Assembly: GCA_015232245.1 (NCBI GenBank)
Contig: JADGAB010000004.1
Coordinates: forward strand, 1-39,334
Length of the DNA stretch: 39,334 nt
DNA from: Magnetococcales bacterium
Lineage (GTDB): Bacteria > Pseudomonadota > Magnetococcia > Magnetococcales > Magnetaquicoccaceae
Direction of reading: 5' to 3'
Each line of letters begins with the position of its first letter. Within the stretch, counting starts at the first letter, position 1. Below the pieces are notes generated by a model, which did no database searches, was not told the DNA's origin, and saw only the letters and a list, made by a program, of their open reading frames with translations. A program made the position numbers and the translations under genes. Shown piece after piece: positions 4,873 to 39,334 of this stretch.

Positions 4873-4913
4873 AGGTCAGGCTCACCATTGATCTGATGGA
4901 CAGTCTTTCCTTA

Positions 4914-4949
4914 GTTGCGCAGGGGGGCTCTTGTTGTGTCCGGCGCAAC
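4914..4949. promoter_or_regulatory. Second inverted repeat in the same gap
   Basis: GTTGCGC (4914-4920) pairs with GCGCAAC (4943-4949) across a 22-base G/T-rich spacer. It is followed within 30 bases by the RBS of the next gene. No U-run follows, so it is not a typical intrinsic terminator. It may be a leader hairpin affecting translation or transcription of the ABA-sandwich gene. Confidence 0.3.
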
Positions 4950-4976
4950 CCAATACCAGACCAGTTGGAGGTCTCC

Positions 4977-5426: not shown

Positions 5427-5435
5427 CGAGATCTT

Positions 5436-8420: not shown

Positions 8421-8423
8421 CGA

Positions 8424-8651: not shown

Positions 8652-8730
8652 GGGTAAAGATGGTACCATTGGTGGTATTGAATTGCAAGCGCAGAGCCAT
8701 GCAGACCTTCCAAGAAGAGCATGACGACAG

Positions 8731-8746
8731 GCGCACAATTGCGCGC
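8731..8746. promoter_or_regulatory. Possible operator upstream of hicA
   Basis: GCGCACAATTGCGCGC is an imperfect palindrome centred on AATT in the 135-base gap between int and hicA. It lies where a HicB ribbon-helix-helix operator or hicA promoter would be expected. A TTGACT on the minus strand nearby could be a -35 element, but no convincing -10 was found at normal spacing. Confidence 0.25.
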
Positions 8747-8786
8747 AGTTTTGGAACAAAATGAGTCAACTCTCCTGGCTTTACTC

Positions 8787-9944
8787 TTAACTTGGTCCAA
8801 TCATCCCCATCATCCTGTCCACGGCCCGTTCCATCGCCTCCCGCACTGGATCCAGATCCAGCCGCGCATAGATCGCCGTCGTCTGTTGCGATTGGTGGCC
8901 CAGGGATTTGCCGATCACCGGCAGGGAGGCACCGGTCATGGCCTGCCAGCTCCCCATGGTCCGGCGCAGATCGTGGATATGGGCGTCGGTGATCCCGGCC
9001 CGGGTCAGGATGCGCTGCCAGGCTGCCAACGGGTCCACCAGATGTCCACTCTTTGATCGGGCGGACGGGAACACCCATTCTCCCGGATTCTGCCCGCGCA
9101 ATCCAACCAACTCCTCCACAGCCTGTGGCACCAACGGGATGGTGATCGGCAGGCCGTTCTTGGTAAGCTGGATTTTCCATACCCTGCGATCAAAATCAAG
9201 ATCCTCCCACCGCATGGACAGAATGTTTCGTTTGCGCGCACCCGTGAGCAGACAAATCATGAAAAAAAGATGCACCCGTGGGGGTTCTTCCCGCAAGGCT
9301 GAAAAAAAACGTCGCAACTCCTCCCCCGAGAGAAACCGGTCGCGGCTGATCTCCCGGTAATAGCGTATCCCCTTGGCCGGATTGGCCATCTCCAGGATTC
9401 CGCTCTCAAGGCCGAAATTGAAGAGCTTTGAAAGCAGGGCCAAAAGGCGATTGGCAAACGAGGGATGTTCTTTACCGATCCGGGCATGAAGGTCGGCAAC
9501 GTCCCGGCGCGTGATGGACGAGAGCCTCTTGCCGTGCAGTGGCACAAGATGCAGGCGAAATTTGCTTTCATCATCCCGCCAGCTTTTCTTTCTGACCCGC
9601 GCCCATCGTTCCAGGTAGAGGTCAAAGAGGTCGGCAAAGGTCATCTCCGCATCGATGGCCTGACGCTCCTCGCTGGGACTCTCGCCCTGGGTCACCAGGG
9701 CGTTGAGCTGTCCGGCGTGTCTCCTGGCATCCTCCACCGACATGCGTGGCCAGCGACCCAGAGTGATCCGTTCCGGACCTCCACCTCTGACGCGCCTGTA
9801 CCACGACCAGGTTTTCACCCCGGAAGGGGAAACGCGCATCTGCAAGCCGGGGGTGTGCTGGTCATGCCAGACCTCCCGACGCCCGGGAGCAGAGGCAGGC
9901 AGTTCGGCGATGCGGGTGGCGGTGAAGATGATCTTTTGGGCCAT
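8787..9944 (-). CDS. int: Phage integrase (tyrosine recombinase)
   Basis: The product is 385 aa. I chose the ATG complementary to 9942-9944, because the N terminus 'MAQKIIFTATRIAELPASAP' is like that of P4-type integrases; the track's 69 extra residues read through upstream repeats. Residues 1-95 form the arm-binding domain and about 100-190 the core-binding domain. The catalytic domain has Arg237 ('LTGARKRNIL'), His324 and Arg327 ('HIHDLRRTMG'), His350 ('SLGHQSQQTT') and the nucleophile Tyr359 ('AIYARLD'). It should integrate the phage at a host attachment site. It is transcribed away from the late genes and is intact, unlike the recombinase at 197-889. Confidence 0.92.
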   Translation of the reverse strand: MAQKIIFTATRIAELPASAPGRREVWHDQHTPGLQMRVSPSGVKTWSWYRRVRGGGPERITLGRWPRMSVEDARRHAGQLNALVTQGESPSEERQAIDAEMTFADLFDLYLERWARVRKKSWRDDESKFRLHLVPLHGKRLSSITRRDVADLHARIGKEHPSFANRLLALLSKLFNFGLESGILEMANPAKGIRYYREISRDRFLSGEELRRFFSALREEPPRVHLFFMICLLTGARKRNILSMRWEDLDFDRRVWKIQLTKNGLPITIPLVPQAVEELVGLRGQNPGEWVFPSARSKSGHLVDPLAAWQRILTRAGITDAHIHDLRRTMGSWQAMTGASLPVIGKSLGHQSQQTTAIYARLDLDPVREAMERAVDRMMGMIGPS

Positions 9945-9945
9945 T

Positions 9946-9978
9946 TTGGGCTTGCCTTGGGTTACGCTTGGGTTACGC
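9946..9978. repeat. Three 11-bp tandem repeats upstream of int
   Basis: TTGGGTTACGC occurs twice in perfect tandem (9957-9967, 9968-9978). An imperfect copy, TTGGGCTTGCC, is in register at 9946-9956. The 11-bp period is one DNA turn, so a protein could bind the same face three times. The site abuts the int start codon. Integrase arm sites, excisionase sites or an autoregulatory operator are all possible. Confidence 0.5.
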
Positions 9979-10093
9979 ATCTGCGGGATTGAAACCGTAT
10001 TTTGCGGGCACTCCAGGGATCTAAACGGGAAAAAGATTTCTGGCCACCATTGATAATACTGGATTCTTGCAAAGCACCCATCCGGATATACAT

Positions 10094-10120
10094 TCCGTAT
10101 GGGTAACATATGGATACGGA
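10094..10120. promoter_or_regulatory. Inverted repeat in the control region
   Basis: TCCGTAT (10094-10100) and ATACGGA (10114-10120) are perfect 7-bp arms around a 13-base spacer. This is a candidate operator or recombination-protein site. No U-run follows, so it is not a terminator. Confidence 0.35.
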
Positions 10121-10230
10121 CGACGATAAAAATGAAGTTATTCAGCATGTCGCATTAAAGCAGATTTTCCAATCGCAAAAATCGGCGAAAAAGGGTAATA
10201 ATTTTCTATGCTGTGGAGAGGTGCGCAAGT

Positions 10231-23948: not shown

Positions 23949-26879
23949 ATGGCGAACCACCGTTACTGGAGATTGTATATCACATCAACCAATCATGCGG
24001 ATGGTGTGTCGTTAAAGATCAATAAAATAGCATTTGCAGTATTTAACGATTTTTTTATATACGATCCTCAAAATATTAATGTTTCCCCTAGCAATGAATT
24101 TAATAATGTGTTTTCAATGCAAAATTATTCAGGGCTATGGTTTGCAGACTCTGCAGAAAAATGGGTTTCTTATGATTTTATATACGCTGTTGATGTTATA
24201 GAAATTGATATTCGTTGCATGGATGAAGGATTCACTCCTAGAAATCTTGAACTGCAATTCTCAGATGACACCATCACATGGGAGAAAAAATTTTCATGGT
24301 TTGACCAACTTCCAACAATGCAATGGAACTTTTTCAGAGAACAAGAAAGCAATGAATTTACTGGATGTCGTTATTGGAAACTTAGAATACACACAACCAA
24401 TAGTCAAGATTTCGTCTCTGCGACCATAAGAGAAATAGAATTCAGAGGAAGTATTGGTGGTGAAGATCTGACATCAAGCAATATTAACGCTGTAACGAAC
24501 TATCCAAGCAACCAGACTGAAAATATTTTCAATAACAATACTGGCGATTATTGGTATGCTGACACCATGCCAAGATGGGTTGTCTATGATTTTGGGGTTG
24601 ATAACAATTCTGTGAAAGTGATTGTCAGAGAGGTTGCTATTTATTGTATCGATAACAACACCCCAAAAGATTTCACGTTATATTGCTCAAACGATGGGTA
24701 TTCTTGGGTTGATGCAATCGACTGGAGGGAAACAACCGACTATACATACGGGTTCAACGCTTTCAATAAAAACAACGCAGTATGGTACCATCATAATATT
24801 TACGGTACCTCACAATTCTATTCTATTGTTGATGATGCGTGCAATACATCGGAGAGCTTAACCGGGAAGATGATTGCCGGAGAATCCCTCGAAGGCGTCG
24901 TTTCCTGCACGTCTGCGCTTGATAACGCTGTCGCCATCTTGAGAGAAGCGGCAGACGGCATGAACGTCTCCGAATCTCCTGCAAGCCAAAGATTCCTGGC
25001 CATCGCCATCAACGAATTGCAGTTCCTGTCCGGGATGCTCGACCCGCAAAGCATCATCTCCCAGACCGCAACGGAAGGGGCGACCTTGGACGGGGTTGTC
25101 ATTTCCTGGCTACAGATTTTGCGGGAAGCCATGGACGGGTTGAGCGTCAGCGATACCAGCCAAGGCATGCTCTCTTTCGTTCTCAGCGAACTGCAAATCC
25201 TGGCAACCACCCTGGAACAGCAAAGGAGACTCTCCCATACCGTAACCGGTGGAATCGTCATGGCCGGGACTGCCGGTTCGTGGATGCGGATTCTGCGGGA
25301 TGCCGTGGCCGGGATGAGCGTCGCGGACGACAGCCAATCCAGGTTGTCTTTCGCCATCCAGGAATTGCAAACCTTCGTGGGCACCTGCGAACAGCAAGGC
25401 AGACTCGCCAATGCCGTAACCGGTGGAATGGCCTTGTCCGGAAACGTGCTGATTGGTTCGGCCCTTCTTCACATCAAGGAGGTCATGGACGGGTTGAGCC
25501 TGGAGGATGCCTCCCGTTCATGGTTGTCGTTTGTCGTGGCCGAACTGGAAGGAATCCAGGAGAGTTTGAATGCTCTCGGCAAATGCTCTCCCATGGTGAC
25601 AGGCGATGTGTCTTTCTCTGCCGTGTCCACGTCCGTGTTTCGTGTTTTGAGGACAGTGCTTGATTCGGCAACACTGGATGATGCAAGCCGATGCGCGTTG
25701 GCGCTTGCAATTGCTGAACTGCAAAACAGCGATGCCTCTGTGGCATCGATGGCAAGAAAGTCCAATCTCGTCACCGGGACGTTGAACCTGAAAGGAACCG
25801 TCTCCCTGGCGGCAGGACTGCTGCTGGCCGTGGCGGAAAGCGTGATACTGACCGATTCCACAGCGATTCAGGCCCCACGCATGGTCCTGGTGCTGGATCG
25901 ATTTGGCATATTGGATTCCAACAGAGCCAACCTGATGGCCAACACCACCGTAACCAGTGGAATGTCATCGTCCGAAGCGGTACGGGTGGCCATGTACGCC
26001 TTTTCCCAGGATGCGGCAACCTGGACCTCTTCCTGTGATGAAATCAGGCTGAAGGCTCTGCTGGTCGCCGAATCCCTGGTTCTCTCCGGGGCTGTCGGGT
26101 CACTGCTGCATGCCCGGATCATCGTTGCCGCAGCACTCACCCTGCAAGATGCCACAATCGGTCATAGAGGGTTTCATGATCAGGCGATAGAGAACATCGT
26201 TCTCAGCGAGGCGTTGTTGCGACTCTGGGTGCATCATGCCACCGCCCTGGACACCATGCTGTTGGCCGATTCCGTGGCAAAAACAGCCCGACTCCAGATT
26301 GCCTTGCAGGATGAATTCAGGTTCCAAGACACGGTTTCTCCTGGAGCGGTATTCAAAGAACTCATGGCGGACGGGGTAAAGATCTTCCTCACATTCAGCC
26401 ATGACGATGACGCCGTTTATTCCGGTTTCGTGCTCAATACCAAAAATTTAGCGGTCAGTGAGTACGCCAACTTCAGGTTCAATTCCATCACTACATGGAA
26501 TGGTCTGGTTTGCATGGCAAATTCATCTGGAATTTTCTTCATGTCCGATAACAACGATGATGACGGACTGAAAATCCAAAGCATGATCAGAACCGGCCTG
26601 ATGGACTTTGGATCTGATCATCTCAAGCGGATTCAAGAGGCGTTTATCGGAATCCGTGGCAACGGACAAATGATCCTCAAGACCATCACCGGAGATGCAA
26701 AAGAAAATTGGTATGATTTAAGGGTGTTACGGTCAAATCCCGGGAAAAACAGAATCAAGTTGGGTCGCGGGGTATCTTCGCTATTCTGGCAATTTGAACT
26801 TCAAAACACAGGAGGGGAGACGTTTGAGATGAAAGAGCTGACATTGTACCCGGTGGCACTTTCGAGGAGGGAACGATAA
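23949..26879 (+). CDS. Virion protein with two discoidin-like domains and a helical repeat stalk
   Basis: The product is 976 aa. Residues 1-139 and 140-280 are two related beta-sandwich-like domains, each opening with a YW(R/K)L strand ('YWRLYITSTN' and 'YWKLRIHTTN'). They resemble F5/8 type C (discoidin) modules, which bind sugars. Residues about 325-800 contain six or more repeats of about 55-60 aa ('LREAMDGLSVSDTSQGMLSF', then 'ELQILATTLEQQ', then a 'VTGG' turn). The C-terminal part (about 815-976), with 'IRTGLMDFGSDHLKRIQEAF' and 'LGRGVSSLFWQFELQNTGG', is a conserved phage virion domain. The first 900 bases are strikingly AT-rich. A host-glycan-binding tail component is likely. Confidence 0.65.
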   Translation: MANHRYWRLYITSTNHADGVSLKINKIAFAVFNDFFIYDPQNINVSPSNEFNNVFSMQNYSGLWFADSAEKWVSYDFIYAVDVIEIDIRCMDEGFTPRNLELQFSDDTITWEKKFSWFDQLPTMQWNFFREQESNEFTGCRYWKLRIHTTNSQDFVSATIREIEFRGSIGGEDLTSSNINAVTNYPSNQTENIFNNNTGDYWYADTMPRWVVYDFGVDNNSVKVIVREVAIYCIDNNTPKDFTLYCSNDGYSWVDAIDWRETTDYTYGFNAFNKNNAVWYHHNIYGTSQFYSIVDDACNTSESLTGKMIAGESLEGVVSCTSALDNAVAILREAADGMNVSESPASQRFLAIAINELQFLSGMLDPQSIISQTATEGATLDGVVISWLQILREAMDGLSVSDTSQGMLSFVLSELQILATTLEQQRRLSHTVTGGIVMAGTAGSWMRILRDAVAGMSVADDSQSRLSFAIQELQTFVGTCEQQGRLANAVTGGMALSGNVLIGSALLHIKEVMDGLSLEDASRSWLSFVVAELEGIQESLNALGKCSPMVTGDVSFSAVSTSVFRVLRTVLDSATLDDASRCALALAIAELQNSDASVASMARKSNLVTGTLNLKGTVSLAAGLLLAVAESVILTDSTAIQAPRMVLVLDRFGILDSNRANLMANTTVTSGMSSSEAVRVAMYAFSQDAATWTSSCDEIRLKALLVAESLVLSGAVGSLLHARIIVAAALTLQDATIGHRGFHDQAIENIVLSEALLRLWVHHATALDTMLLADSVAKTARLQIALQDEFRFQDTVSPGAVFKELMADGVKIFLTFSHDDDAVYSGFVLNTKNLAVSEYANFRFNSITTWNGLVCMANSSGIFFMSDNNDDDGLKIQSMIRTGLMDFGSDHLKRIQEAFIGIRGNGQMILKTITGDAKENWYDLRVLRSNPGKNRIKLGRGVSSLFWQFELQNTGGETFEMKELTLYPVALSRRER
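24920..26350 (+). repeat. Protein-level repeats, about 55-60 residues each
   Basis: Repeated units run from an 'LREA(A/M)DG(M/L)xVS' helix through an '(A/L)xxELQ' helix to a 'TGG(x)xLxG' turn. The first four copies are clear and two more diverge toward the C terminus. They are related at protein level but clearly diverged in DNA, so the duplications are old. Confidence 0.6.
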
Positions 26880-29800
26880 TGGGATCAGGAGGAGCAGGTC
26901 AAGTACCTTATGACGCGAATGCCGCACCGGCACCATTTGAAGCGCATGCAGATCCTCCACAGCCTGTCAAAGCTGAACCGGCCCCATTCGACGCCTTTGC
27001 CGCACCGGCCCCATTCGACGCCTTTGCTGCACCGGCTCCATTCAATGCGCAAGCTGCACCGGCTCCATTCAATGCGCAAGCTGCACCGGCTCCGTTCAAT
27101 GCGCAAGCTGCACCGGCTCCGTTCAATGCGCAAGCTGCACCGGCTCCGTTCAACGCGCTTGCTGCACCGGCTCCGTTCAACGCGCTTGCTGCACCGGCTC
27201 CGTTCAATGCGCAAGCTGCACCGGCTCCGTTCAATGCGCAAGCTGCACCGGCTCCGTTCGCTGCACATGCTGCACCGGCTCCGTTCAACGCGATTGCCGA
27301 AGCGGCCCCATGGACAGCGCCACCGCCCTGGACCGACAAAGCCGACCCGGCCCCTTGGCAGGAGAGTTCAACACCTGCGCCCTGGTGCAACCCGGCGGAA
27401 CCGCCGCCTTGGATCGATGCTGTCAGCGTGGCCCCGGCTGCCAGCGCTTCCAGGTTGGCACGCCCCCCCAGATCCAATCCCTACGACATTCCCGGGAGCA
27501 TCACCGCCGCGCATTCCAAGGCGGCAGCCACGGCAGACGTCGCCGTTGCCAATGCGATTATGTTTGCCAACAAGCTGTCCGAGGTGGCCACCAACATTGC
27601 CGATTTGTCTCAGGAAAAGCTCACACCCAGAGACAAAGGTCGCATGCCGACCCGAACGACAACCATTCAACCACCCACCCCGATTGTCCTGGATGAACCC
27701 CAACTGAACCAGCCAGCCGGGGTCATCCTGAAACCACTGACAGAATTTCCTATCCAGGACACGTCGCCAACCATCGCGGATATTGCCGCGCCAACCCCTT
27801 TTGACGGGGCCTTTCCGGTCAATACGAGTGTCCTCCCCGAGCCAAGAGAGGTCGCGATTCCAACGGAAAGACCACCCTCCGCGCCGATTCTCCCGGAGAT
27901 CACCATTCCCGATCTGCCAGATCTGGACCTGGCCGTGTTCGATGTGGCGGCACCGGTCAGCCCGGTCATGCGGGAGGTGGTGTTCGATGATTCCGTCATC
28001 CAACCCGTGCGCCCGATGCCGGTATTCGACTTCACCGCCATGGAACGGCTTTACCAGAAAACCTCCACCTTGTCCGATGCCATTTTCAACGGGGACAGAA
28101 CCACCGTATTCCGCATTTTTCCCCACATCAACGACGCCGTTTTGCGGGTGGCCCTTGATCGGGAAGCGGGGAACGACCTGAATGGCGAATATGCCATTCT
28201 GAACGGCTTTGCGCAGCGAGGTTTCGCCCGGCCACCGGGTGCCGCATTGAAACAATTGAGAAGGGCCAGGGAAGCCAGAGAGGCGCGGAACTCGGAGGCG
28301 ATCCGGGCCATGATGGTCCAGGAGATCACCCAGGAGCGGGAAGAGATCCGATGGGTTACGGAAATGGTCTCGTCCACCACGAAGGAGCTGCTTGGGTTTG
28401 AAAGCCTGTTGTTTGAAAGGGCGGTCAATTTCCAAAAACAGATGCTCGACCTGGGGATCACCTTCTTTGGGTATCAGAAAGACCAATTCCTGACCAGGCT
28501 TTCCGAGCATGAAGCCCATCGGAAGGATGCCCGTGAAAAAATCGAGATGCAATTGTTGACCCTGGAAAAAAGCAAACTCGATCTGGAGTTCGCAAGAGCC
28601 AGGGGGACGTTGCAGGAACTTGCCCTGAAGAAATATGAATCTGAAATCAAGGGGGCGGAGAGCGCCTATCAACTGTATCAGAGCCAACTGGATGGCGAGA
28701 AAACCAGAATCAGCATGGGGCAATTACAACTGGAGGCCTTTGGCAAGGAGATCCAGGCTTACGAAGCGGCTGTCCATGCGAAAAGCATGGAATACGACGC
28801 CTACGCAAAACGATGGTCCGGGGAAGGAATCAAAATCGATGCTTTCGCCAAGTCCGCCGAAGCGTTCAGATCCCGTGTCGAAGCCTTTACAGGCATCAGG
28901 GATGGGGAGATCAAACAACAGGGCCTGCTCAACGAGAATTACAGAAGCAACCTGGAAGCGTTCAAAATCGCTTCCGAGATGAAGAATGCGCAAGCGGAAA
29001 AAAGGCTGGCTCTGTTTGATAACCAAATCAAACTTTTTTCAGCACAGGTCGCAGGCCAGGAAGCTTTGGGGAAACTGGAAGTGGACGAATACCGGATCGA
29101 TGCCGGCATCCTGGAAAAAGAGATCGAGCATGATATCGAAATACTGAAAAACAAAGCCGCCATTGCGCAGCAGTCCGCAAATGTCATGCTGGAATCGTCA
29201 AGGCATTTGTCAGGAGTGTTCTCCCAGGTTGCGGCCTCGTCTCTGTCTGTCGTGAATTACAACGGCTCCATGTCAGCCTCCGACTCAACCTCCGAATCCT
29301 ACGGTTTCAACGAGTCCAATTCCTCATCCACGTCGGATTCCACCAGCAACAGCGCCTCCAATTCCACCAGCAACTCGACAAACAACAGCACCTCAAACAG
29401 TGCCAGCAATGTCTCCTCGAATTCGGCATCCAATTCCGCCAGCAACAGTTCATCGAACGGAGCATCCAACTCGGCCAGCAATGCGGCTTCCAATGCGACG
29501 TCAAATTCGGCCAGCAATTCGGCTTCCAACAGCGCGTCCAATTCGGCCAGCAATAGCGCCAGCAATTCGGCCAGCAATAGCGCCTCCAACAGCGCCTCCA
29601 ACTCGGCCTCGAATTCGGCCAGCAACAGCGCGTCCAACTCGGCCAGCAATAGCGCCAGCAACAGCGCATCCAACAGCGCCTCCAACTCGGCCAGCAATAG
29701 CGCCTCCAACAGCGCGTCCAATTCGGCCTCGAATTCGGCTTCCAACAGCGCGTCCAACTCGGCCAGCAATAGCGCCAGCAACTCGGCCAGCAATAGCGCC

Positions 29801-30208
29801 AGCAACTCGGCCAGCAATAGCGCCTCCAACAGCGCCTCGAATTCGGCTTCCAACTCGGCCAGCAATGTGGCCTCCAACAGCGCCTCGAATACGGCCAGCA
29901 ACAGCGCCAGCAATGTGGCCTCCAACAGCGCATCCAACTCGGCTTCCAACTCGGCCAGCAATGTGGCCTCCAACAGCGCCTCGAATACGGCCAGCAATTC
30001 GGCCTCCAACTCGGCCAGCAATTCGGCCTCCAACAGTGCGTCCAACAGCGCGTCCAACTCGGCCAGCAATGTTGCTTCCAACAGTGCGACGAACTCGGCT
30101 TCCAACAACTCTTCCAACTCGGCAGTCAACAGTTCATCGAACAATGCAAGCAACACTTCAAGCAATTCATGGACTGAGACTCATTATTATGACAATTCCG
30201 CAGGTTAA
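26879..30208 (+). CDS. 1109-aa coiled-coil virion protein with two repeat arrays
   Basis: Translation is coupled to the gene upstream (TAATG), with GAGGAGGGA ahead. Residues about 14-145 are tandem 9-mers of the type AAPAPFNAQ, then PAPW variants. Residues about 240-390 are Pro/Val-rich. Residues about 430-780 form a long charged coiled coil ('KIEMQLLTLEKSKLDLEFAR', 'AHRKDAREKIE'). Residues about 820-1097 are almost entirely Ser-Ala-Ser-Asn tetrapeptides, closed by 'NSWTETHYYDNSAG'. I recognise no enzyme. It lies between tail-fibre-like genes and the polyvalent gene. A long structural fibre, tail tube component or ejected virion protein are the main options. Confidence 0.7.
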   Translation: MGSGGAGQVPYDANAAPAPFEAHADPPQPVKAEPAPFDAFAAPAPFDAFAAPAPFNAQAAPAPFNAQAAPAPFNAQAAPAPFNAQAAPAPFNALAAPAPFNALAAPAPFNAQAAPAPFNAQAAPAPFAAHAAPAPFNAIAEAAPWTAPPPWTDKADPAPWQESSTPAPWCNPAEPPPWIDAVSVAPAASASRLARPPRSNPYDIPGSITAAHSKAAATADVAVANAIMFANKLSEVATNIADLSQEKLTPRDKGRMPTRTTTIQPPTPIVLDEPQLNQPAGVILKPLTEFPIQDTSPTIADIAAPTPFDGAFPVNTSVLPEPREVAIPTERPPSAPILPEITIPDLPDLDLAVFDVAAPVSPVMREVVFDDSVIQPVRPMPVFDFTAMERLYQKTSTLSDAIFNGDRTTVFRIFPHINDAVLRVALDREAGNDLNGEYAILNGFAQRGFARPPGAALKQLRRAREAREARNSEAIRAMMVQEITQEREEIRWVTEMVSSTTKELLGFESLLFERAVNFQKQMLDLGITFFGYQKDQFLTRLSEHEAHRKDAREKIEMQLLTLEKSKLDLEFARARGTLQELALKKYESEIKGAESAYQLYQSQLDGEKTRISMGQLQLEAFGKEIQAYEAAVHAKSMEYDAYAKRWSGEGIKIDAFAKSAEAFRSRVEAFTGIRDGEIKQQGLLNENYRSNLEAFKIASEMKNAQAEKRLALFDNQIKLFSAQVAGQEALGKLEVDEYRIDAGILEKEIEHDIEILKNKAAIAQQSANVMLESSRHLSGVFSQVAASSLSVVNYNGSMSASDSTSESYGFNESNSSSTSDSTSNSASNSTSNSTNNSTSNSASNVSSNSASNSASNSSSNGASNSASNAASNATSNSASNSASNSASNSASNSASNSASNSASNSASNSASNSASNSASNSASNSASNSASNSASNSASNSASNSASNSASNSASNSASNSASNSASNSASNSASNSASNSASNSASNSASNSASNVASNSASNTASNSASNVASNSASNSASNSASNVASNSASNTASNSASNSASNSASNSASNSASNSASNVASNSATNSASNNSSNSAVNSSSNNASNTSSNSWTETHYYDNSAG
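26919..27315 (+). repeat. 27-bp tandem repeats encoding APAPFNAQ-type 9-mers
   Basis: About 12 units of GCTGCACCGGCTCCGTTCAA-type DNA (27 bp, 9 codons), varying at the last residue (Gln, Leu, Phe, His, Ile). Several neighbouring copies are nearly identical at DNA level, so expansion was recent or is still active. Confidence 0.85.
29341..30168 (+). repeat. 12-bp tandem array encoding about 69 Ser-Ala-Ser-Asn units
   Basis: The unit is a 12-bp coding repeat (for example GCCAGCAATAGC, GCCTCCAACAGC, GCGTCCAACTCG). Serine is written as AGC, TCC or TCG and asparagine as AAC or AAT in many combinations, while the peptide stays almost constant. Because the unit is a multiple of three and has no stop in any frame, spurious ORFs appear on both strands. 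Confidence 0.9.
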
Positions 30209-30222: not shown

Positions 30223-31626
30223 ATGGCTTACACGATAGATGATTGGTGGAATACCTTCAAGAAGCGCAACGCTCCGGCTTCTGACATGATGAGCACACCA
30301 CCCGCCAATGCGCTTGGTTTTGACCAGAACAAACCTGCGCCGTTGCCTGGGGCTCCGGCAGCGCCTGCAGATCAAAATCGCGAAAACACGGTTGGTGGAT
30401 TTCGGATATTGCCAAGAGAACCAGAGACCCCGTTGCCAGGGGCTCCGGCATCGCCACCGGCTGTGGTTCCCAAGCTTGACCAGTGGTTTGGGGGAGACAC
30501 CCGAGAACGCAGCAACGACTGGTTGACGGAGTTCAGGAACAACAACACGCAGACCGTTGTTCCTCTGAATGCAACGGCTTTGCCAGGTGCAGCGCCACCG
30601 GCTGTGGTTCCCAAGATCGACCAGTGGTTTGGTTCTGATGCGCCACCACGAAGCAACGACTGGTTGACGGAGTTCAGTAAGAACAACACGCAACCGGATG
30701 GGCCTGCCAATATTCTTGGTTTGCCTGGTGGTCCGGCAGCGCCTGCGGCGGTGGCAACTCCACCAAAAACACCCCCGGTAACGCCATTACCCCAGACAAA
30801 AAGTCCTGACACGCCTGGAACGTTTGCGAACAACCGGGAAACGACAACTTGGCCTGTTGAAATCGCGGACCCGACCAAGCCTTTCCCTGCGCCAACCCCC
30901 AATGCCAACAACCTCCAAAATCCAATCCCTGACAATACCCTCGGCCCCCAACCGAGGCAAACATGGCAGAGGATGAGACCCGACCCTCTGAATCCTGAAC
31001 CGGGCAGCATGCGGCCTTCGGGAAACTATTCTGGGCCATCCCAGGAAGCGTGGGGGTTGGCAGAACCACAACCCTTGCCAAACGGGCCTGATAATGTCGC
31101 ATCCAGGCATAACTCCTTCTCCCAGAGCCGGAGTGCGACCAATCCGGTTTTCAGGGAGATGTCACCGCAGCAAATAGAGGCTTTCAATAAAGCGTCGGAG
31201 ATTGTTGATAGATTATCCAACATGCCGGTCATGGAGAACGGAAGAACCATCAAAGGGAGAATGAACGAAACCGTCAGGACACTTCTCCAGGCTGCATTTG
31301 CTGGCATCGGCGCGCATGGGGCACAGTCGCAAAGCATTCATAACCAGGGTTCCAATCAGTGGAGCCTGCCGTCAACACCGCCAAGCGACAAGGGGAGATA
31401 TCATTTCACTCCGAACCCGAACTTTGACGGCAAATTGATTGTTTCGGATAGCGTCTCTGGTGATTCATGGCTCAGAACCCCTGGAGCGCCGCCCGTTCCA
31501 GGAACAGCCACGGCTCCGACAGGGAAGGCAGAGCCTGTTTTCGCAAGCCCTGAGGCGGCCAAGGCGGCGGGGAAGAAGCCGGGTGATGTTGTCACGACTG
31601 CGGACGGAAAAAGAAGGATTCTGTAA
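30223..31626 (+). CDS. Proline-rich protein with repeated DQWF/DWLTEF motifs
   Basis: The product is 467 aa, preceded by a weak RBS. It opens with 'YTIDDWWNTFKKRNA', and related units recur as 'DQWFGGDTRERSNDWLTEFR' and 'DQWFGSDAPPRSNDWLTEFS', separated by Pro/Ala linkers. The middle is Pro/Asn-rich. Residues about 305-375 look helical ('PQQIEAFNKASEIVDRLSNM'). The C terminus ends with a small beta-like segment, 'GKKPGDVVTTADGKRRIL'. Its stop overlaps the start of the giant gene (TAATG), so the two are translationally coupled. The DWW/DWLTEF motifs may be docking peptides for another virion or packaged protein. The family is unknown. Confidence 0.6.
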   Translation: MAYTIDDWWNTFKKRNAPASDMMSTPPANALGFDQNKPAPLPGAPAAPADQNRENTVGGFRILPREPETPLPGAPASPPAVVPKLDQWFGGDTRERSNDWLTEFRNNNTQTVVPLNATALPGAAPPAVVPKIDQWFGSDAPPRSNDWLTEFSKNNTQPDGPANILGLPGGPAAPAAVATPPKTPPVTPLPQTKSPDTPGTFANNRETTTWPVEIADPTKPFPAPTPNANNLQNPIPDNTLGPQPRQTWQRMRPDPLNPEPGSMRPSGNYSGPSQEAWGLAEPQPLPNGPDNVASRHNSFSQSRSATNPVFREMSPQQIEAFNKASEIVDRLSNMPVMENGRTIKGRMNETVRTLLQAAFAGIGAHGAQSQSIHNQGSNQWSLPSTPPSDKGRYHFTPNPNFDGKLIVSDSVSGDSWLRTPGAPPVPGTATAPTGKAEPVFASPEAAKAAGKKPGDVVTTADGKRRIL

Positions 31627-34600
31627 TGCCCAACTACGCGAATGACCCATGGGCAGGGTTTGAACTGGTTGCCCCGAAGCAGAAGGAAGTTCAACCCGCC
31701 AAGCCGAAAGACCCCTGGGAAGGGTATCAGGAAGTCAAACCTTCGGATTCGAAAGACCCCTGGGCAGGGTATCAGGAAGTCAAACCTTCGGATTCGAAAG
31801 ACCCCTGGGCAGGGTATCAGGAAGTCAAACCTTCGGATCCAAAAGACCCCTGGGCAGGGTATCAGGAAGTCAAACCAGAGAACGCGCCTAAAATGACGTT
31901 CGGTCAGGCGTTTGGACAGGGTGTCGAACAGGCCAAAGAAATGGGGGCTGGCGGAATCAAGGTGATTGGTGAGGCGGCAGGCTGGCCATCATTTGTGGAT
32001 GCAGGGGAGAAATGGAGAAAAGAAGCGCATGATGCGGTGGAGGGGTACGGCCAGCAACAAACATTTGAAGGCATCCGCAGTCCTGGAGATTTAGGGCAGT
32101 GGGGCAAGGAAACTGTTGGGAGACAAATCCCCATAATGGCCCCTTCCGTGATTGGAGGTTTTGCGGGGGGGATGATTGGCGGCAGGATTTTCGGACCAAT
32201 CGGTGCCAGAATCGGTTCCAGAATCGGCGCAGGAGTTGGTGGATACCTGATAAATGTCGGTGATGTGGAAAACAACATCATGGACCGTGGCGATGGCGCA
32301 TCTGCTCCTTTGGCTGCGTTAGGTGGTGGTGCCGTGATCAGTGCCTTGGACAGTTACGGGTCTGGAAAATTAGGCGATAAGCTGGCTGGGATGATCGGCA
32401 AGAAAACGGCTGAAAACATTGCAGAAGTGACGCTGAAAGATCGACTGAAAGGAGTCGGAAAAGCGGCGTTGAAAGATGGCGTCATTGAGGGAGTCACGGA
32501 AACTGCGCAGGATTATGTCAGTGAGGGATCGGCAGCAACAGGGACAGGGACACCGTTCAATCCTGCCAACATTCAACCGTTGGAATCTGGTGCGGCTGGT
32601 TTCCTGTTGGGTGCGTTGATGGGGGGTGGAGGGCATTTGAGGCGACAAGGGCACGGCGAGCAAACTCCCTCGGGTTCATCCACCCAGGACACTGCCACCC
32701 AGGTTTCCCCCATCCCAGACCCGGCGCAGACCGCGCAAGACGAGTCGCATATCAATGATCAGGTGGAGGAATACCGTGATCTGTTCGCGCATTTGGTTGC
32801 AAATGGCGAGCATCCGGATGAGGTGGCGAAAAACCTCCAGGAGTTGTACGGCCCGCAGATCGCCGAATTGGGGAATCAGGGTGTGGATCTGGGGGAGCCT
32901 GCCCGGCAGGACTGGAGTCAGGCGGAAACCTCGGAACCGGTGCCGCCCCATCTTTCCGCGTCGGGGATTGCTGTGCCACCCGGGGAAAGGGCGGCCACGG
33001 AGAAGGGGCTTTCACAGGAAATCGCCTCACGCATGGCAGAACCCGCGCATCCACAACCGGTGGAGTCGGCACCTCAAGTCAGCCCGTCCGCGCCTCTCCC
33101 TGAAGCCGCTCCAGGGCCAGAGGCGGCGCGACAACCGGAGCGGGTCGTCAACCCACCGGTAGCGGTCACACCCCTGGAAACAGGCGGGCAACCCCTCGAT
33201 ATCGAAAAAATGGCGGACGCTTTCAGCCAATTTGGCGTGTCCGCCGCCAACCTGGAGAAGCACCTTGGAAAACCGTTGTCCGAAATCACCCCGGACGATA
33301 TGCAAACCTTGCGGCAGACCTATGCGCGTCTGCAAAAAGGCTCGTCATTGCCAGAAGAGGTCTTCCCGGATCTGCGGGTTGCGAAAATTCTTGCAAGCAG
33401 AGGGTTCCAGGATGGTCTGATCTTTGACGAGAATGGTCAACCCTGGAACACCATGCAAAAGGCGCGCTTGGCCTCCGGCGGCAATTGGACCACCCCTTTG
33501 CGCAATCAGGGGTATAACCTGATCCCGTACCAGCAGGAAGGCAATGGCGGATGGGGATTGCGGGTGGTGCCTCCGGAAGAGAAAATCGCCACCCCTCCCG
33601 CGTCTCCATCTTCCCAGATCAATCCCGCGCCCATGCCGCCCGGCGCGCAGGGAGCCCCCCCAGGATTGGCGGGACAACCAGCAACTCAACCAACACCCTC
33701 CCATCAAGAGGGCGTTGTCGTTTCCGGGGGAACCCCATTGCCGCCTGCCGGCAAGGGGGTTCCCCCGGCCATGACCGGAACGAACCAGGAGGCCGTCACG
33801 ACTGGCATGGCATCCGGAGGCCCAACCGACGTATTGGCATCCAACGGCAAGCCCTTCGTCAGCCAACGCGCCGCAAGTCTGGCCGCCAAGGCCAGAAAAA
33901 TCAGCGACACCCATGAACCGGTGGAAAACAGTGGGAATGGGTGGGTGTTGAGATCCAGAAACGCCCAGACCCAGCAGGCGCAACCCACCCAGCAGGCGCA
34001 ACCCGAACCGTTGACGCAGGCGACGCCCGACATCGCGACGCCTGAGCCGGTCCCGGAACAGCAGGGGGGAGAACTGCCAGGGGTTGGGGTGTCCGTGCGA
34101 CCGGATGCCGGGTCACATGTCTTCGAAAAGGATCCGGATTGGCTTCCTGCCAAAAAACAAAGCGACATCGAAGCGGCGCGACGTTTCGCGGAACGGCATT
34201 GGACTCCCAAACAGACGGAAGCCATCAAGGCGCAACTGGTTGATCCGGCCAATACGGTGTTCATCTCGCAACCAAGTACCAGTGGACAAAACACGCTCCC
34301 AACCGGGTTGGCGGAAAAACTGGCAAAAGAAACAGGTGGAACAGTTCTTGATGGAGATCAATTTTTCTTGGCGCAACACACAGAACAGTCCAAGAATATC
34401 CAAAAAGACAGACGGGTTTTCCATCCAAGAGACTATGAAATTCTGGACCCTGGGAAACTCCGCGACCTGATTCATGGAAGAGAGGTCGTTATCGCGGATG
34501 ATGTGTTCACCACAGGGGGTTCGGTTGGGCAACTCATTCGTACCATGAAAGCCGCCGGGATGCCGGTGAAGGCGGTGGCGGGCTATGTGGGCGATACACG

Positions 34601-37600
34601 GCTTAAGCCGGAACCACAAATCATTTCCTCCTTGCAGGGAGCGCTCAGGAATGCGAAAATAGATGTCAAAGGCAAAGACCTTGCGTCTATCCTGACCCGA
34701 GCGGAAATACAAGAAATCACGAGGCTGATCAACAATGCGCGAACTCCTGAAGCCCGTCAAACCCTTGCCAGAGACCTACATGGGTTACTCACCGGAAGAA
34801 TTGATCCAGGTATGGTTGCAAATCAACTCTCCGGGAGGAGCAGTGGGAACCCCACGGGAAAAAATTGGGGCAATGCGGCGCATGTTCCTGGAATACAAAA
34901 TGACGCCGGGGTTCAAACGACCACCGAGCCCGTGGGAAATCGGGAGATAGCCGGGAAAGGGCCAAATGACCCCCATGTTTCAAGCCCCCCCGGAGAAGCG
35001 GGAGATCGAGCCCGAGGGTTTCAGGAACTGACAGGACTCCCAGACCAGCCCGCCGCCCCCCGGCAAGACCACCCAACGCCATCCCCCAAGGATGGCGTTG
35101 CTGTTTCCGACATCCCCGCCCATGGAGCACTTGAGCCAGGGGATATCGAAAAGGATCCCATTACCGGAAAAGAATTCGCATCGGACGAAAGCGCCAGACT
35201 TTTCACAAAGCTTGCGAAAAAACCATTTGAAGTGGTAAAAGTTGGACAGGAAAAATGGGTGGCCAGACCTGTGCCGCAACCAACCTCAACTCAAGTGGAG
35301 ACCCCCGATGAACATCGACCCGAACATGATCCTGGGAGAACTCAAACTGAAGAACCCGGAAGAGTACGCCCGGTTGAAGAAAGAGGGCGGACTGCAGGCC
35401 CTGGACCAGTACTGCCGGGAGAAGGAACGGGAGATCAGGGACACCATGAGCTTCATCAAGCCGGTGAATCCGAACGCCACGGAACCGAATCCGGCGGATC
35501 TGGTGATCGCCCGGGAACTGGCGATGAGCTGACCAACCATCGGATCCTGCCCGGTTCGTTGGAAGAGAACCGGGGCATGAAAACCAAGGCCCGGGACAAT
35601 CTGACCGCCATCAAGCTGGTCAAGCAACTTGCGACGCAAGGACGCGCCGCCACGCCGGAAGAACGGCAACTCCTCGCCAGGTATGTGGGTTGGGGCGGGT
35701 TGAGCGGTGCGTTTCCCAATTCGAAGGGTGATTTCGGTCCGGGCATGCGCGAAATCGGTGCGGAGTTGCGCCAGATCCTCACCGACGAGGAGTATGCCAC
35801 GGCCCGAAAATCCACCCAGTATGCCCACTACACCTCTGAACCCGTGGTGCGGGCCATGTGGCAGGCGGTGGAACGTTTCGGCTTCCAGGGGGGCAAGGTG
35901 TTCGAACCCGGCATGGGCACAGGGAATTTCGCGGGTATGATGCCCGAAACCCTGGTGAACCAATCGGACTATACCGGGGTGGAGATGGATCCCATGACCG
36001 CGCGCATCGCGCAGGCCCTGTATCCGAAATGGGACATCCGGGAAGCGGATTTCACCCGCTATCAGACTCCCAAGAACTCCTTTGATCTGGCCATCGGCAA
36101 CCCGCCTTTCGCCGACATCCGGGTCAAATCCGATCCGGAATACGCCAAACACGCCTTTCTGCTGCATGACTACTTTTTCGCCAAGTCCATGGACGCCTTG
36201 AAACCAGGAGGCATCCTCGCGTTCATCTCCTCGGCTGGCACCCTGAACAAAACAGACCCCAGAGCGCGCAATCATCTGGCGGACCGGGCCGACTTTCTGG
36301 GCGCGATCCGCTTGCCGGGCAATGCGTTTTCCAAAAACGCCGGAACCGAGGTCACGACCGACATCATCTTCCTGCGCAAACGCCAGACGGGAGAAGCGCA
36401 GGGAGACCGCGCCTGGACCCGATCCGAATCGTTCACCGGACCGGACAAAACCGGGAATCCTGAAACCGGCTACAGAAACGCCTGGTTCGGCACCCACCCT
36501 GAAATGGTTCTGGGAGAGGAAGGGTTCTTCGACCGCCTTTATCCGGGACGGTACGCGGTACGGGCGCGCCCAGGGGACGATCTGAACAAACTGCTCGCCA
36601 CGGCCCTGCAACACCTTCCCGGGAATGTTCTCCAGGGGAAAAACCCGGCCACACCACAGCAGGAGAAGAGCGATACGCGGGTTGTCGAAACCAAGAACGG
36701 ATCCTATTACGTCCGGGACGGAGGTCTGTTCCAGTTCGTGGAGGGGCGCGGCGTACCGGTGTTGACACGGGGACCGGGAGTGGTCGGAGGCATGACCCGG
36801 GCCGAACAGGAGGTGGTCAAGCGGCTGATTCCCATGCGGGACGCCTTGCGCGCGGTCTACGCCGCCGATGCCGGCAACGACACGCAGGATGCCGCCAAGG
36901 CCAGAAAGACGTTGAACCGACTCTATGACGCCTTTGTGGCCACCCATGGCCCGATCAACAAAACGGTGGTCACCACCAGCAAACCGACCTTGCTCCAGCA
37001 GGAGAGAGCCAGGAACGAAGCGCGTGATCAGTCCGAGGGGTTTTTTGACGAAGGCTCGTTCGATCCCTCCGCAATGATCCTGGCCAACCGTCCGATCAAG
37101 GAAATCGCCGAAGCCAGACAGAAAGCGCGCAACGAGGCGGCAGCCAGAAACCGATCCTGGGATGAGGGTTCTTTCGATCCCGGGAAAATGCCGGACAACG
37201 AAACCTTCCGCTATCCGAACATCGACCCGTTCACCGATGACCCGGAGAGTTACCGGTTGCGCTCCATCGAGGCCTATGACAAGGAGACCGACAAGGCATC
37301 CAAGCGGCGGGTGTTCACCGAAAACCCGGTGGCGGCGGAAACCGCACCAGTGATCCGTTCCGTTGGTGACGCCCTGATGCACGTTTTGAACAAAACAGGT
37401 CGCGTGGACATCGACGCGACTGCCGAGGTGGCCGGGAAAAACCGGGATGCGGTCATCCAGGAACTGGGGGACCGGGTGTTTCAGATTCCCGGGTCAAACG
37501 ATCAGTGGGTGACGCGGCATGAATACCTGTCCGGGCGGGTCAAGACGAAACTCAAAGAGGCCATGGAGGCAGCCAAAAGGGATCCATCCTTCGAGCGCAA

Positions 37601-39334
37601 CGTCGAGGCCCTGACCAAGGCCCAACCGGCCCCGTTGGCACCGGAGGAGATCCATTTGACCCTGGGCATGAACTGGATCCCGCCCAGACTCATCGAGGAG
37701 TTCGCCGAAAAAGGTCTTGGATTGCGTCACGCATCCGTCCATTCCATTCCGGAGATCAGCGAATGGACCGTGCAGGGGGACGAGAAGTCGGCGGCAGCGA
37801 CCAGCGTTTGGGGTACCCCGGAAAAAAGCGCCATTGAACTGCTGCGGTACGCACTGAACAAACAGGTGCCCCGCATCCATCACCCTGGAGAGCAGCCCGG
37901 CAAGATTGGTCCTTTGAACACCGAGGCCACCGGCGCGGCGATTTCCAAAGTGAACGAAATCCAGGAGCGGTTCAAAGAGTGGGCATACGGGAAAGACTGG
38001 CTGTTTCAACTCTACAATGACATGTTCAACAACAACGTGGTTCCAGACCGGATGGACGGCGAGTATCTGACCACTCCCGGCGTCCGGGTGGGCTGGGAGT
38101 GGCGGCCCCATCAAAAGTCCGTGATCGCCCGCATCATCATGCGCGGCAACACCTACATGGCCCACTCCGTGGGGTCAGGAAAGACCTCGGCCATGATCGG
38201 ATCGGCCATGGAAATGCGGCGGCTCGGACTGGTGAAAAAACCCATGTTCGTGGTGCCGAACCACATGTTGATCCAATTCGCATCCGAATTCTACGATCAG
38301 TACCCAAACGCCAAAATCATGGTGGCGGACGAGGAGAAATTCCACACCTCCAGACGCAAGCAGTTCATCGCGGATGTGGCCAGTCAGGATCTGGATGCGG
38401 TCATCATCACCCATTCGGCCTTTGGCATGATTCCGATCAGCGACGCCTTTCAGGACCGGTTGATTGAAGAGCAGGTCGAGCGCTATCGCAACGCCATTGC
38501 CGAGGCCCAGAGCGCAAGAAACGAAGAAGCGCGGATCACGGTCAAACGTCTGGAAAAGATGGTGCAAAAGCTTCAGGAACGCCTGACCGGTCAGGGGAAT
38601 CTGCGCAAGGATCAGGTATTCACCTTCGAAGAGATGGGGGCGGATTTCCTGTTTGTGGATGAGGCCCATGAATTCCGCAAACTGTCATTCCCGACCAGGC
38701 AGCAGTTGAAAGGGATCGATCCGGAAGGCTCCAAAAAGGCGTGGGATCTGTACACCAAAACCCGGTATCTGGAGACCGTGCGACCCGGACGCAATCTGGT
38801 GATGTCCTCCGGGACGCCGGTCACCAACACCATGGGCGAACTGTTCAATCTCTCCCGCTTCATGCAACCAAACGAATTGAAATTGAACGGGTTGGAGACC
38901 TTTGACGACTGGTCCGCCATGTACGGCACCGTTTCCGCCGACCAGGAACAGACCCCGACCGGCGGGTATCAACTGGTGACCCGGTTCAATCGCTTCGTCA
39001 ACGTGGCGGATCTGTCCCGCATGGTGCGGCAGAACATGGATGTCGTGACCTCCTCCCAACTCGGCGAGTTCGTCACCCGCCCGCAAGAGAAACGGCAACT
39101 CCATATCCTGCCACGCCTGCCCATCTTGCGGGCGTTCCAGAAACAGTTGAATACCCGGTGGGAGATCATCAAAAACCGCAATGGCAAATCAAAACCCGGG
39201 GAAGACATCATCCTGAACATCATCGGCGACGGTCGCAAGGCGGCCTTCGACATGCGGTTGATCAACAGTAACGCACCGTCCGATCCCGACAGCAAATTGA
39301 ACACCATTATCCGCAACGTGTTCGACATATGGGG
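31626..39334 (+). CDS. Giant polyvalent protein: PRTase, N6-methylase and helicase domains (right end cut off)
   Basis: This frame is open from ATG 31626 to the edge, at least 2569 codons; the track omits it because no stop is reached. Order: four PWAGYQEVKPS repeats (residues 26-85), a glycine-zipper membrane segment (about 176-210, 'GGFAGGMIGGRIFGPIGARI'), Pro-rich linkers with three GK(P/E)F-type modules (about 600, 739, 1180), and a phosphoribosyltransferase-like motif 'VVIADDVFTTGGSVGQL' (about 954). Then come 'LLARYVGWGGLSGAF', an N6-adenine methylase ('VFEPGMGTGNF' about 1426, 'AIGNPPF' about 1491) and an SF2 helicase (Walker A 'AHSVGSGKTS' about 2180, 'FVDEAHEF' about 2343). It resembles polyvalent phage proteins and P1 DarB, which are packaged and act on entry. 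The start is coupled to the previous stop (TAATG). Confidence 0.85.
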   Translation, partial: MPNYANDPWAGFELVAPKQKEVQPAKPKDPWEGYQEVKPSDSKDPWAGYQEVKPSDSKDPWAGYQEVKPSDPKDPWAGYQEVKPENAPKMTFGQAFGQGVEQAKEMGAGGIKVIGEAAGWPSFVDAGEKWRKEAHDAVEGYGQQQTFEGIRSPGDLGQWGKETVGRQIPIMAPSVIGGFAGGMIGGRIFGPIGARIGSRIGAGVGGYLINVGDVENNIMDRGDGASAPLAALGGGAVISALDSYGSGKLGDKLAGMIGKKTAENIAEVTLKDRLKGVGKAALKDGVIEGVTETAQDYVSEGSAATGTGTPFNPANIQPLESGAAGFLLGALMGGGGHLRRQGHGEQTPSGSSTQDTATQVSPIPDPAQTAQDESHINDQVEEYRDLFAHLVANGEHPDEVAKNLQELYGPQIAELGNQGVDLGEPARQDWSQAETSEPVPPHLSASGIAVPPGERAATEKGLSQEIASRMAEPAHPQPVESAPQVSPSAPLPEAAPGPEAARQPERVVNPPVAVTPLETGGQPLDIEKMADAFSQFGVSAANLEKHLGKPLSEITPDDMQTLRQTYARLQKGSSLPEEVFPDLRVAKILASRGFQDGLIFDENGQPWNTMQKARLASGGNWTTPLRNQGYNLIPYQQEGNGGWGLRVVPPEEKIATPPASPSSQINPAPMPPGAQGAPPGLAGQPATQPTPSHQEGVVVSGGTPLPPAGKGVPPAMTGTNQEAVTTGMASGGPTDVLASNGKPFVSQRAASLAAKARKISDTHEPVENSGNGWVLRSRNAQTQQAQPTQQAQPEPLTQATPDIATPEPVPEQQGGELPGVGVSVRPDAGSHVFEKDPDWLPAKKQSDIEAARRFAERHWTPKQTEAIKAQLVDPANTVFISQPSTSGQNTLPTGLAEKLAKETGGTVLDGDQFFLAQHTEQSKNIQKDRRVFHPRDYEILDPGKLRDLIHGREVVIADDVFTTGGSVGQLIRTMKAAGMPVKAVAGYVGDTRLKPEPQIISSLQGALRNAKIDVKGKDLASILTRAEIQEITRLINNARTPEARQTLARDLHGLLTGRIDPGMVANQLSGRSSGNPTGKNWGNAAHVPGIQNDAGVQTTTEPVGNREIAGKGPNDPHVSSPPGEAGDRARGFQELTGLPDQPAAPRQDHPTPSPKDGVAVSDIPAHGALEPGDIEKDPITGKEFASDESARLFTKLAKKPFEVVKVGQEKWVARPVPQPTSTQVETPDEHRPEHDPGRTQTEEPGRVRPVEERGRTAGPGPVLPGEGTGDQGHHELHQAGESERHGTESGGSGDRPGTGDELTNHRILPGSLEENRGMKTKARDNLTAIKLVKQLATQGRAATPEERQLLARYVGWGGLSGAFPNSKGDFGPGMREIGAELRQILTDEEYATARKSTQYAHYTSEPVVRAMWQAVERFGFQGGKVFEPGMGTGNFAGMMPETLVNQSDYTGVEMDPMTARIAQALYPKWDIREADFTRYQTPKNSFDLAIGNPPFADIRVKSDPEYAKHAFLLHDYFFAKSMDALKPGGILAFISSAGTLNKTDPRARNHLADRADFLGAIRLPGNAFSKNAGTEVTTDIIFLRKRQTGEAQGDRAWTRSESFTGPDKTGNPETGYRNAWFGTHPEMVLGEEGFFDRLYPGRYAVRARPGDDLNKLLATALQHLPGNVLQGKNPATPQQEKSDTRVVETKNGSYYVRDGGLFQFVEGRGVPVLTRGPGVVGGMTRAEQEVVKRLIPMRDALRAVYAADAGNDTQDAAKARKTLNRLYDAFVATHGPINKTVVTTSKPTLLQQERARNEARDQSEGFFDEGSFDPSAMILANRPIKEIAEARQKARNEAAARNRSWDEGSFDPGKMPDNETFRYPNIDPFTDDPESYRLRSIEAYDKETDKASKRRVFTENPVAAETAPVIRSVGDALMHVLNKTGRVDIDATAEVAGKNRDAVIQELGDRVFQIPGSNDQWVTRHEYLSGRVKTKLKEAMEAAKRDPSFERNVEALTKAQPAPLAPEEIHLTLGMNWIPPRLIEEFAEKGLGLRHASVHSIPEISEWTVQGDEKSAAATSVWGTPEKSAIELLRYALNKQVPRIHHPGEQPGKIGPLNTEATGAAISKVNEIQERFKEWAYGKDWLFQLYNDMFNNNVVPDRMDGEYLTTPGVRVGWEWRPHQKSVIARIIMRGNTYMAHSVGSGKTSAMIGSAMEMRRLGLVKKPMFVVPNHMLIQFASEFYDQYPNAKIMVADEEKFHTSRRKQFIADVASQDLDAVIITHSAFGMIPISDAFQDRLIEEQVERYRNAIAEAQSARNEEARITVKRLEKMVQKLQERLTGQGNLRKDQVFTFEEMGADFLFVDEAHEFRKLSFPTRQQLKGIDPEGSKKAWDLYTKTRYLETVRPGRNLVMSSGTPVTNTMGELFNLSRFMQPNELKLNGLETFDDWSAMYGTVSADQEQTPTGGYQLVTRFNRFVNVADLSRMVRQNMDVVTSSQLGEFVTRPQEKRQLHILPRLPILRAFQKQLNTRWEIIKNRNGKSKPGEDIILNIIGDGRKAAFDMRLINSNAPSDPDSKLNTIIRNVFDIW
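31701..31880 (+). repeat. Four 45-bp tandem repeats at the start of the polyvalent gene
   Basis: Each unit encodes 15 residues of the form 'DSKDPWAGYQEVKPS'. Copies two and three are nearly identical in DNA, and the first and last differ at a few codons. A related single unit ('NDPWAGFELVAP') precedes them. Short DPWAGF-like peptides occur at the N terminus of some phage internal virion proteins, so they may be packaging or docking tags. Confidence 0.85.
34735..34950 (+). CDS. Candidate overprinted gene 1 inside the polyvalent ORF (+1 frame)
   Basis: A 71-aa product, 'MRELLKPVKPLPETYMGYSP' continuing to 'KRPPSPWEIGR'. GAGG lies 10 bases before the ATG. The +1-frame peptide has balanced, protein-like composition with helices ('EELIQVWLQI', 'KIGAMRRMFLEYKM'). 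The giant frame here reads a low-complexity Gly/Asn/Pro linker. It could be a separate overlapping gene, or a former stand-alone gene swallowed by fusion. No homologue is recognised, so function is unknown. Confidence 0.5.
   Translation: MRELLKPVKPLPETYMGYSPEELIQVWLQINSPGGAVGTPREKIGAMRRMFLEYKMTPGFKRPPSPWEIGR
35308..35532 (+). CDS. Candidate overprinted gene 2 inside the polyvalent ORF (+1 frame)
   Basis: A 74-aa product starting 'MNIDPNMILGELKLKNPEEY'. GGAG is seven bases upstream, a near-ideal Shine-Dalgarno placement. It looks like a compact helical protein ('LKKEGGLQALDQYCREKERE'). In the same DNA the giant frame reads an Arg/Gly/Glu/Pro-rich string typical of a shadow frame. The ORF ends just before the methylase-helicase part begins ('NRGMKTKARDN'). 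This fits an ancestral order of separate genes, now read through in one frame. Confidence 0.55.
   Translation: MNIDPNMILGELKLKNPEEYARLKKEGGLQALDQYCREKEREIRDTMSFIKPVNPNATEPNPADLVIARELAMS

Follow-up and report, generated by a model that had tools for sequence, protein, structure and literature searches.

A giant DarB-like gene of a Magnetococcales podovirus-like element very probably contains a second, nested gene in the +1 frame

Introduction

The dar system was described in 1987. In phage P1, DarB is carried in the head, its first 30 residues being sufficient as a packaging signal (PMC9024508), and genetics has identified it as an antirestriction factor (PMC5512222). Iyer et al. proposed that a translocating adenine methylase acts on entering DNA (PMC5512222), and both the methylase-helicase dyad and phosphoribosyltransferases (PRTases) in polyvalent proteins have already been described (PMC5512222). 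Purified virions yielded 51 unique peptides of JC1 gp69, a relative of the protein considered here (PMC9144972). DarB-like giants are common, with matches in 117 phage records and 289 candidates in IMG/VR, of which we kept 79 loci. Their cargo varies and includes transglycosylase, inorganic pyrophosphatase, ADP-ribosyltransferase, ParB-like and PBECR1 nuclease domains.

Here we describe a gene at the right-hand end of the window, the whole 39,334-nucleotide stretch of Magnetococcales DNA that we analysed. By sequence comparison its product belongs to the polyvalent, DarB-like virion proteins of podoviruses, a known kind; it extends the DarB-like class to Magnetococcales and has a modular front part. 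Moreover, the locus very probably has two coding layers, the giant DarB-like protein and a separate 74-aa protein read in the +1 frame. In our view the nested gene matters more than the giant, being a strongly supported, unannotated overlapping gene with selection reversed between the frames.

The giant gene and its phage-like setting

The window is one contig (G000:C426) of a 481-contig Magnetococcales MAG, and its surroundings form a temperate podovirus-like element. An integrase and an endolysin are followed by terminase, portal and major head protein genes and then by large late genes. The giant gene lies at the end of this podovirus late operon; a late-operon position had been noted in the first-pass annotation. 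One of the late genes (26879-30208, 1109 aa) carries about 14 APAPFNAxAAP repeats at its N terminus and a long NSASNSAS repeat at its C terminus; it has no Pfam match and is possibly a virion fibre-like protein. The features of the giant frame, with the integrase, are as follows.

8787-10148, minus strand: integrase
31626-39334, plus strand: first 2569 codons (about 60%) of the DarB-like giant polyvalent gene, continuing on C430:15193-10006 (minus strand)
31644-31871, plus strand: five copies of DPW(A/E)G(F/Y)xxV, residues 7-82, four of them within a 45-nt tandem repeat
31782-32657, plus strand: N-terminal module of the LUZ24 virion-protein family, residues 53-344, glycine zipper included (hmmsearch E=1.4e-29; phrog_6958 E=1.1e-30; hhalign prob 99)
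34116-34805, plus strand: PRTase-like domain, residues 831-1060 (PRPP motif; hhalign match to ComF)
34497-34523, plus strand: DDVFTTGGS, PRPP motif, residue 958 (motif search)
35574-36407, plus strand: methylase module, gamma-class N6-adenine methylase of DarB type, residues 1317-1594 (Pfam Eco57I E=4e-7; TaqI in PDB)
35904, plus strand: EPGMGTGNF, SAM motif, residue 1427 (motif search)
36096, plus strand: GNPPF, residue 1491, with NPPF at 36099 (motif search)
37959-39332, plus strand: SNF2/SF2 helicase, first RecA lobe, from residue about 2112 (Walker A, DEAH, SGTP)
38172, plus strand: GSGKT, Walker A, residue 2183 (motif search)
38658, plus strand: DEAH, residue 2345 (motif search)

The frame of at least 2569 codons that was earlier reported to run off the contig edge does so. 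In the ORF listing it extends from an ATG at 31626 to 39332 on the plus strand, 2569 codons with the 3′ end open and no stop up to the end of the contig. Its start had also been described as coupled to a preceding virion gene. The coupling holds, since the ATG and the stop codon before it share one base (TAATG); the virion label of the gene concerned (30223-31626) is one of position only, and profile searches gave no family match for it.

A sister species (G009) carries an intact homologue of 4234 aa on contig C53, 64% identical to the window protein across residues 522-2569, and a second, partial copy on C296. Because of this intact homologue and the low dN/dS in the methylase and helicase (dN 0.12, dS about 1.0, window vs sister), we regard the open frame as real coding sequence. 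The stretch 34700-35580 had been singled out as the place where a stop or a frameshift would split the frame; the frame is open there, and in both sister copies as well.

A search of the window's own MAG with the C terminus of the sister protein found a contig of 15193 b, C430, whose minus strand opens with the giant's next codons and continues for 1728 codons to a stop at C430:10006. This part is 58% identical to the sister protein. The two contigs abut in frame with zero sequence overlap, and we infer that C426 and C430 hold one gene, which if joined would encode a protein of about 4298 residues. The window being a whole contig, the rightward extension suggested for the frame is indirect and arrives at a stop codon by way of this postulated join. 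Past the giant gene, C430 (L141) 1-9431 is a defence-island-like cluster adjoining the phage, with an AbiEi/AbiEii pair, a C5 methylase with Vsr, a GHKL ATPase and a Z1-domain protein. Also on this contig, at L141 3546-5996 (minus strand), an 816-aa protein has N-terminal ankyrin repeats fused to a sigma-70 factor (regions 1.2, 2, 3 and 4).

Domain architecture of the giant

All of the motifs named in the first-pass annotation are present in the giant frame, and its description of the protein as polyvalent and related to P1 DarB was borne out by PHROG 10089, 'DarB-like antirestriction' (E=0), and by about 40% identity to Lessievirus DarB-like proteins (39-42% for residues 1284-2566 vs Lessievirus DarB). 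At the N-terminal end, what comparison shows is that residues 53-344 are homologous to the N-terminal part of LUZ24-type virion proteins. The glycine zipper reported there is present; the membrane-active character ascribed to this end is not supported. The 19-residue Kyte-Doolittle mean never exceeds 1.4 in the window part, and the strong hydrophobic segments of the giant lie in its C430 part (Kyte-Doolittle, 19-residue windows). We also considered that cargo might have entered between the two halves of a LUZ24-type virion protein, and rejected this reading: homology is clear at the N-terminal end but was not significant at the C-terminal end (hhalign prob 2.8; hmmsearch). The DPWxG repeats at the very N terminus could possibly act as a packaging or docking signal. 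As a general signal of DarB-like giants they were rejected, short N-terminal repeats (at least three copies) in 3/73 giants (the window, L060 and L112) vs 0/219 internal stretches being too weak a difference.

The EPGxGxG-type and NPP(Y/F) motifs of the methylase are invariant across 8 giants. Behind it, the helicase has motifs I, II and III in the window and its C-terminal domain, the second lobe, on C430. The C430 part also contains LPD39 (E=6.6e-18) and a PLxRFG domain (NF032893, E=2.8e-201, 670 bits vs a cutoff of 100), the latter assigned to the giant by way of the postulated join. An HExxH motif in the same part, NHEIIHAL, is kept in both homologues and, having no family match, marks a putative peptidase only. 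LPD39, PRTase-like domain, methylase and helicase are thus found in one polypeptide, as expected of a polyvalent protein. Third-position GC goes up from 0.5-0.55 to about 0.75 near 35800, at the start of the methylase module, a step consistent with a mosaic gene.

The PRTase-like domain is related to ComF (hhalign prob 97, E=2e-11), and a profile search of PDB sequences led to OPRT/APRT. Its score against Pfam PF00156 was below cutoff, and a low-confidence model (pLDDT 59) had APRT as its top structural match. Between window and sister it shows dN 0.22 and dS 1.24. In a search of 399 genomes of the phylum, Magnetococcales alone had close relatives (E<1e-10). In the sister genome G010, a solo PRTase of the same family (268 aa, L016:10046-10852, G010:C20) lies a few kb from dnaA-dnaN-recF-gyrB-like genes. 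G018 has a PRTase at the end of another polyvalent protein, and a Desulfosarcina plasmid has a relative close to its TraA relaxase gene. On G009:C296 (L015:144-326, 1530-2207) a C-terminal PRTase fragment is duplicated upstream of the full PRTase. A tblastn search of 50,697 phage records gave no convincing match to the PRTase, and two peptide-pattern scans of IMG/VR gave no relatives; nor did peptide patterns find close relatives of the whole window protein there. A related PRTase is encoded behind the helicase in the IMG/VR locus L065, a distant DarB-like giant (E=2e-9); L098 and L087 are weaker cases. The suggestion that the exact domain combination may be new is thus weak, given that its parts have been described (PMC5512222) and that L065 has a related PRTase in a DarB-like giant. 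As far as these sequences go, it is not the combination of domains that is new but their order.

The LUZ24-type virion N terminus and the PLxRFG C-terminal domain would also suit a giant that is mainly a DNA-ejection or structural protein, with a methylase-helicase that is not antirestriction but, for example, marks or translocates the entering genome. Moreover, no DarA homologue has been reported in related phages (PMC10269572). We consider such a role unlikely on balance, though a serious contender, in view of the strong constraint on methylase and helicase, which keep all of their motifs, and of the genetics of P1 DarB (PMC5512222). Protection of incoming DNA is the function that we favour for the giant.

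A probable gene nested in the +1 frame

The linker just before the methylase lies inside the 34700-35580 stretch and contains a second open frame, to us the most unusual feature of the locus and one that the first-pass annotation passed over.

35297-35300, plus strand: Shine-Dalgarno-like GGAG, 7 nt upstream of the ATG of the nested gene
35308-35532, plus strand: nested overlapping gene, 74 aa and TGA, in the +1 frame of the giant, of a distantly TnpV-like family

In the giant frame the linker (residues 1064-1310) has dS 0.58 and dN 0.47, vs dS of about 1.0 and dN of 0.12 in the neighbouring methylase and helicase. The +1 ORFs of the window and of the two sister copies have identical ATG and stop positions and are 77-84% identical. 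Over the 74 nested codons, pN/pS in this trio is 0.40, 0.30 and 0.21 in the nested frame vs 2.12, 1.56 and 2.16 in the giant frame, and conservation of the protein begins at the nested ATG. AlphaFold2 predicts four helices (pLDDT 82.5), a fold for which the PDB gave no match with E<=0.001.

Shuffling the codons with the giant peptide kept gives +1 runs as long as that observed, so that a test of run length was not significant, as would be expected were the ORF an untranslated by-product of the low-complexity G/R/E-rich linker. We rejected this shuffle as a test of the nested gene, since the fixed G/R/E-rich peptide of the giant already excludes +1 stops and leaves it little power. A by-product would not explain why it is the +1 protein that is under selection rather than the linker peptide, why start and ribosome site are kept across very diverse phages, why the offset is the same in 83/83 loci, or why the nested protein is predicted to fold with confidence. 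We therefore give this reading almost no weight. A translated nested gene fits far better: its frame appears to be the constrained layer here, and the linker of the giant to be tolerated shadow sequence.

Built from the window copy and its two sisters, an HMM gave weak matches just before the methylase in other giants, and the +1 ORFs collected from that place form a clear protein family with the start methionine aligned. With a 42-sequence HMM the nested gene was found in 83/90 DarB-like loci, every match on the plus strand and at offset +1; 40 of these 83 loci lie outside the model, some of them near-duplicates of its members, and matches in the loci used to build it are circular and not independent evidence. 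Among the seven loci without a match, four (L102, L114, L124 and L136) break off inside the methylase or near it. A model built without the window and L019 again picked out the window copy, at E=4e-4 in a set of 37,657 ORFs, and had no further match in the window.

Starts were located in 58 loci, 55 with ATG and 3 with GTG, a few of them (such as L128, L134 and L083) on the wrong run, the real copy later being found elsewhere in the linker. A Shine-Dalgarno sequence precedes 49/58 nested starts (84%) vs 635/6956 background ATGs of the +1 frame (9%, p=1e-42). Of 237 pairs of giants, 211 have the nested frame better conserved than that of the giant (median pN/pS 0.64 vs 0.96), most clearly in the pair L075/L115, with pN 0.08 and pS 0.44 in the nested frame against pN 0.18 and pS 0.11 in that of the giant. 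Across DarB-like loci this predicted gene keeps its frame, its start with the ribosome site, its stop and its protein sequence. Selection in a second frame, an own start with a ribosome site and a conserved stop are the features by which overlapping genes are recognised, and all were found here.

Matches in 21 phage records are covered by the annotation of the giant only and are not annotated as a separate gene, and in 61 related host genomes the nested gene occurs only inside the three giants. It has probably been overlooked since annotation keeps the longer frame alone. The family resembles TnpV distantly: the L085 copy passes the Pfam cutoff (28.3 vs 27) and several others match part or most of the profile weakly. 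The window copy has no match of its own to Pfam TnpV (PF14198), and with the L085 copy as query no TnpV relatives were found in plasmids.

The +1 frame might also be reached by programmed frameshifting, which would yield, next to the full giant, a shorter product made up of the N-terminal cargo and the nested domain. Shine-Dalgarno-like sites can stimulate frameshifting. In PBC5 as deposited (L142, AF448724) orf33 and orf23 split the DarB-like gene, and the upstream half, orf33, reads in frame through the nested domain and then stops, which reflects either an indel error or a real variant. PHROG 938, a 2185-position 'endolysin' profile, likewise has the nested domain at its C terminus. Against this, the +1 frame of L119, L115, L131, L046 and L049 is open for just two codons ahead of the ATG, a stop closes it shortly before the ATG in the C296 copy, and in the window trio conservation starts at the ATG itself. 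Moreover, ATG or GTG stands at 58/58 located starts, 49 of them with a Shine-Dalgarno sequence. We judge frameshifting improbable and hold to a separate gene with its own start.

Proposed roles of the two proteins

We hypothesise that the giant is a DarB-like protein of about 4.3 kaa from a temperate podovirus whose host is a Magnetococcales bacterium. Like P1 DarB and JC1 gp69, with which we draw the analogy, it would be packaged in the virion and enter the host with the DNA, where its methylase and SNF2-type translocase may act on the incoming DNA and so protect it from restriction; packaging, ejection and function are all extrapolated from these relatives. The PRTase, the putative HExxH peptidase and LPD39 would be exchangeable cargo.

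The 74-aa helical protein would be read in the +1 frame from its own ATG at 35308 behind the Shine-Dalgarno sequence; ribosomes would initiate there internally, late, on the mRNA that also encodes the giant. Because it is constantly encoded beside the methylase-helicase, it may be a partner or regulator of that pair. The nesting probably arose when an upstream polyvalent gene was fused to a methylase gene through an intervening small gene. Should the nested protein indeed partner the methylase-helicase, it would offer a direct genetic handle on DarB-type protection of incoming DNA. For a broader claim we see about even odds, namely that DarB-like giants across podovirus groups are systematically dual-coding and that the small TnpV-like protein is dedicated to the methylase-translocase, as its partner, its inhibitor or a control of its dosage. 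If this is true, work on known DarB-like systems has missed one of their components.

Comparison with known systems

P1 DarB has a methylase and a helicase homologous to those of the giant (E 3e-24 and 8e-11). However, it is shorter (2255 aa), the N-terminal cargo is absent and the nested gene was not found in it. The pattern search did not recognise an NPPF/Y/W motif IV in P1 DarB (L058 10469-17236), a motif that all podovirus giants checked possess. In the record of Itty13 (L051, NC_070969), which appears to be mis-annotated, the deposited genes lie on the strand opposite a 4112-codon DarB-like frame.

The 1055-aa virion structural protein of LUZ24-type phages (Bruynoghevirus) is alike over its N-terminal 300 residues (E=1.4e-29), whereas the C-terminal halves have no significant similarity. 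With the PRTases of polyvalent proteins (Iyer et al. 2017, PMC5512222) the domain in the giant shares the DD of the PRPP motif, the relation to ComF and the occurrence in phage and plasmid elements; it is placed before the methylase in the window giant but behind the helicase in L065. The likeness to TnpV (PF14198) is seen in several nested copies, and here the gene sits nested in another gene.

The DarB-like proteins of Lessievirus and relatives (BcepMigl, JC1, Bcep22) come closest. Unlike them, the window giant has a PRTase and a LUZ24-type N terminus, and no lytic transglycosylase was found in its N-terminal part; it ends in a PLxRFG domain, whereas the PLxRFG motif was not found in BcepMigl. 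The order of methylase followed by SNF2-type helicase is the same, at about 40% identity. Moreover, the Lessievirus-type proteins, like the window giant, measure 4-5 kaa and stand at the end of the late operon, and BcepMigl (L012) also has a nested +1 ORF.
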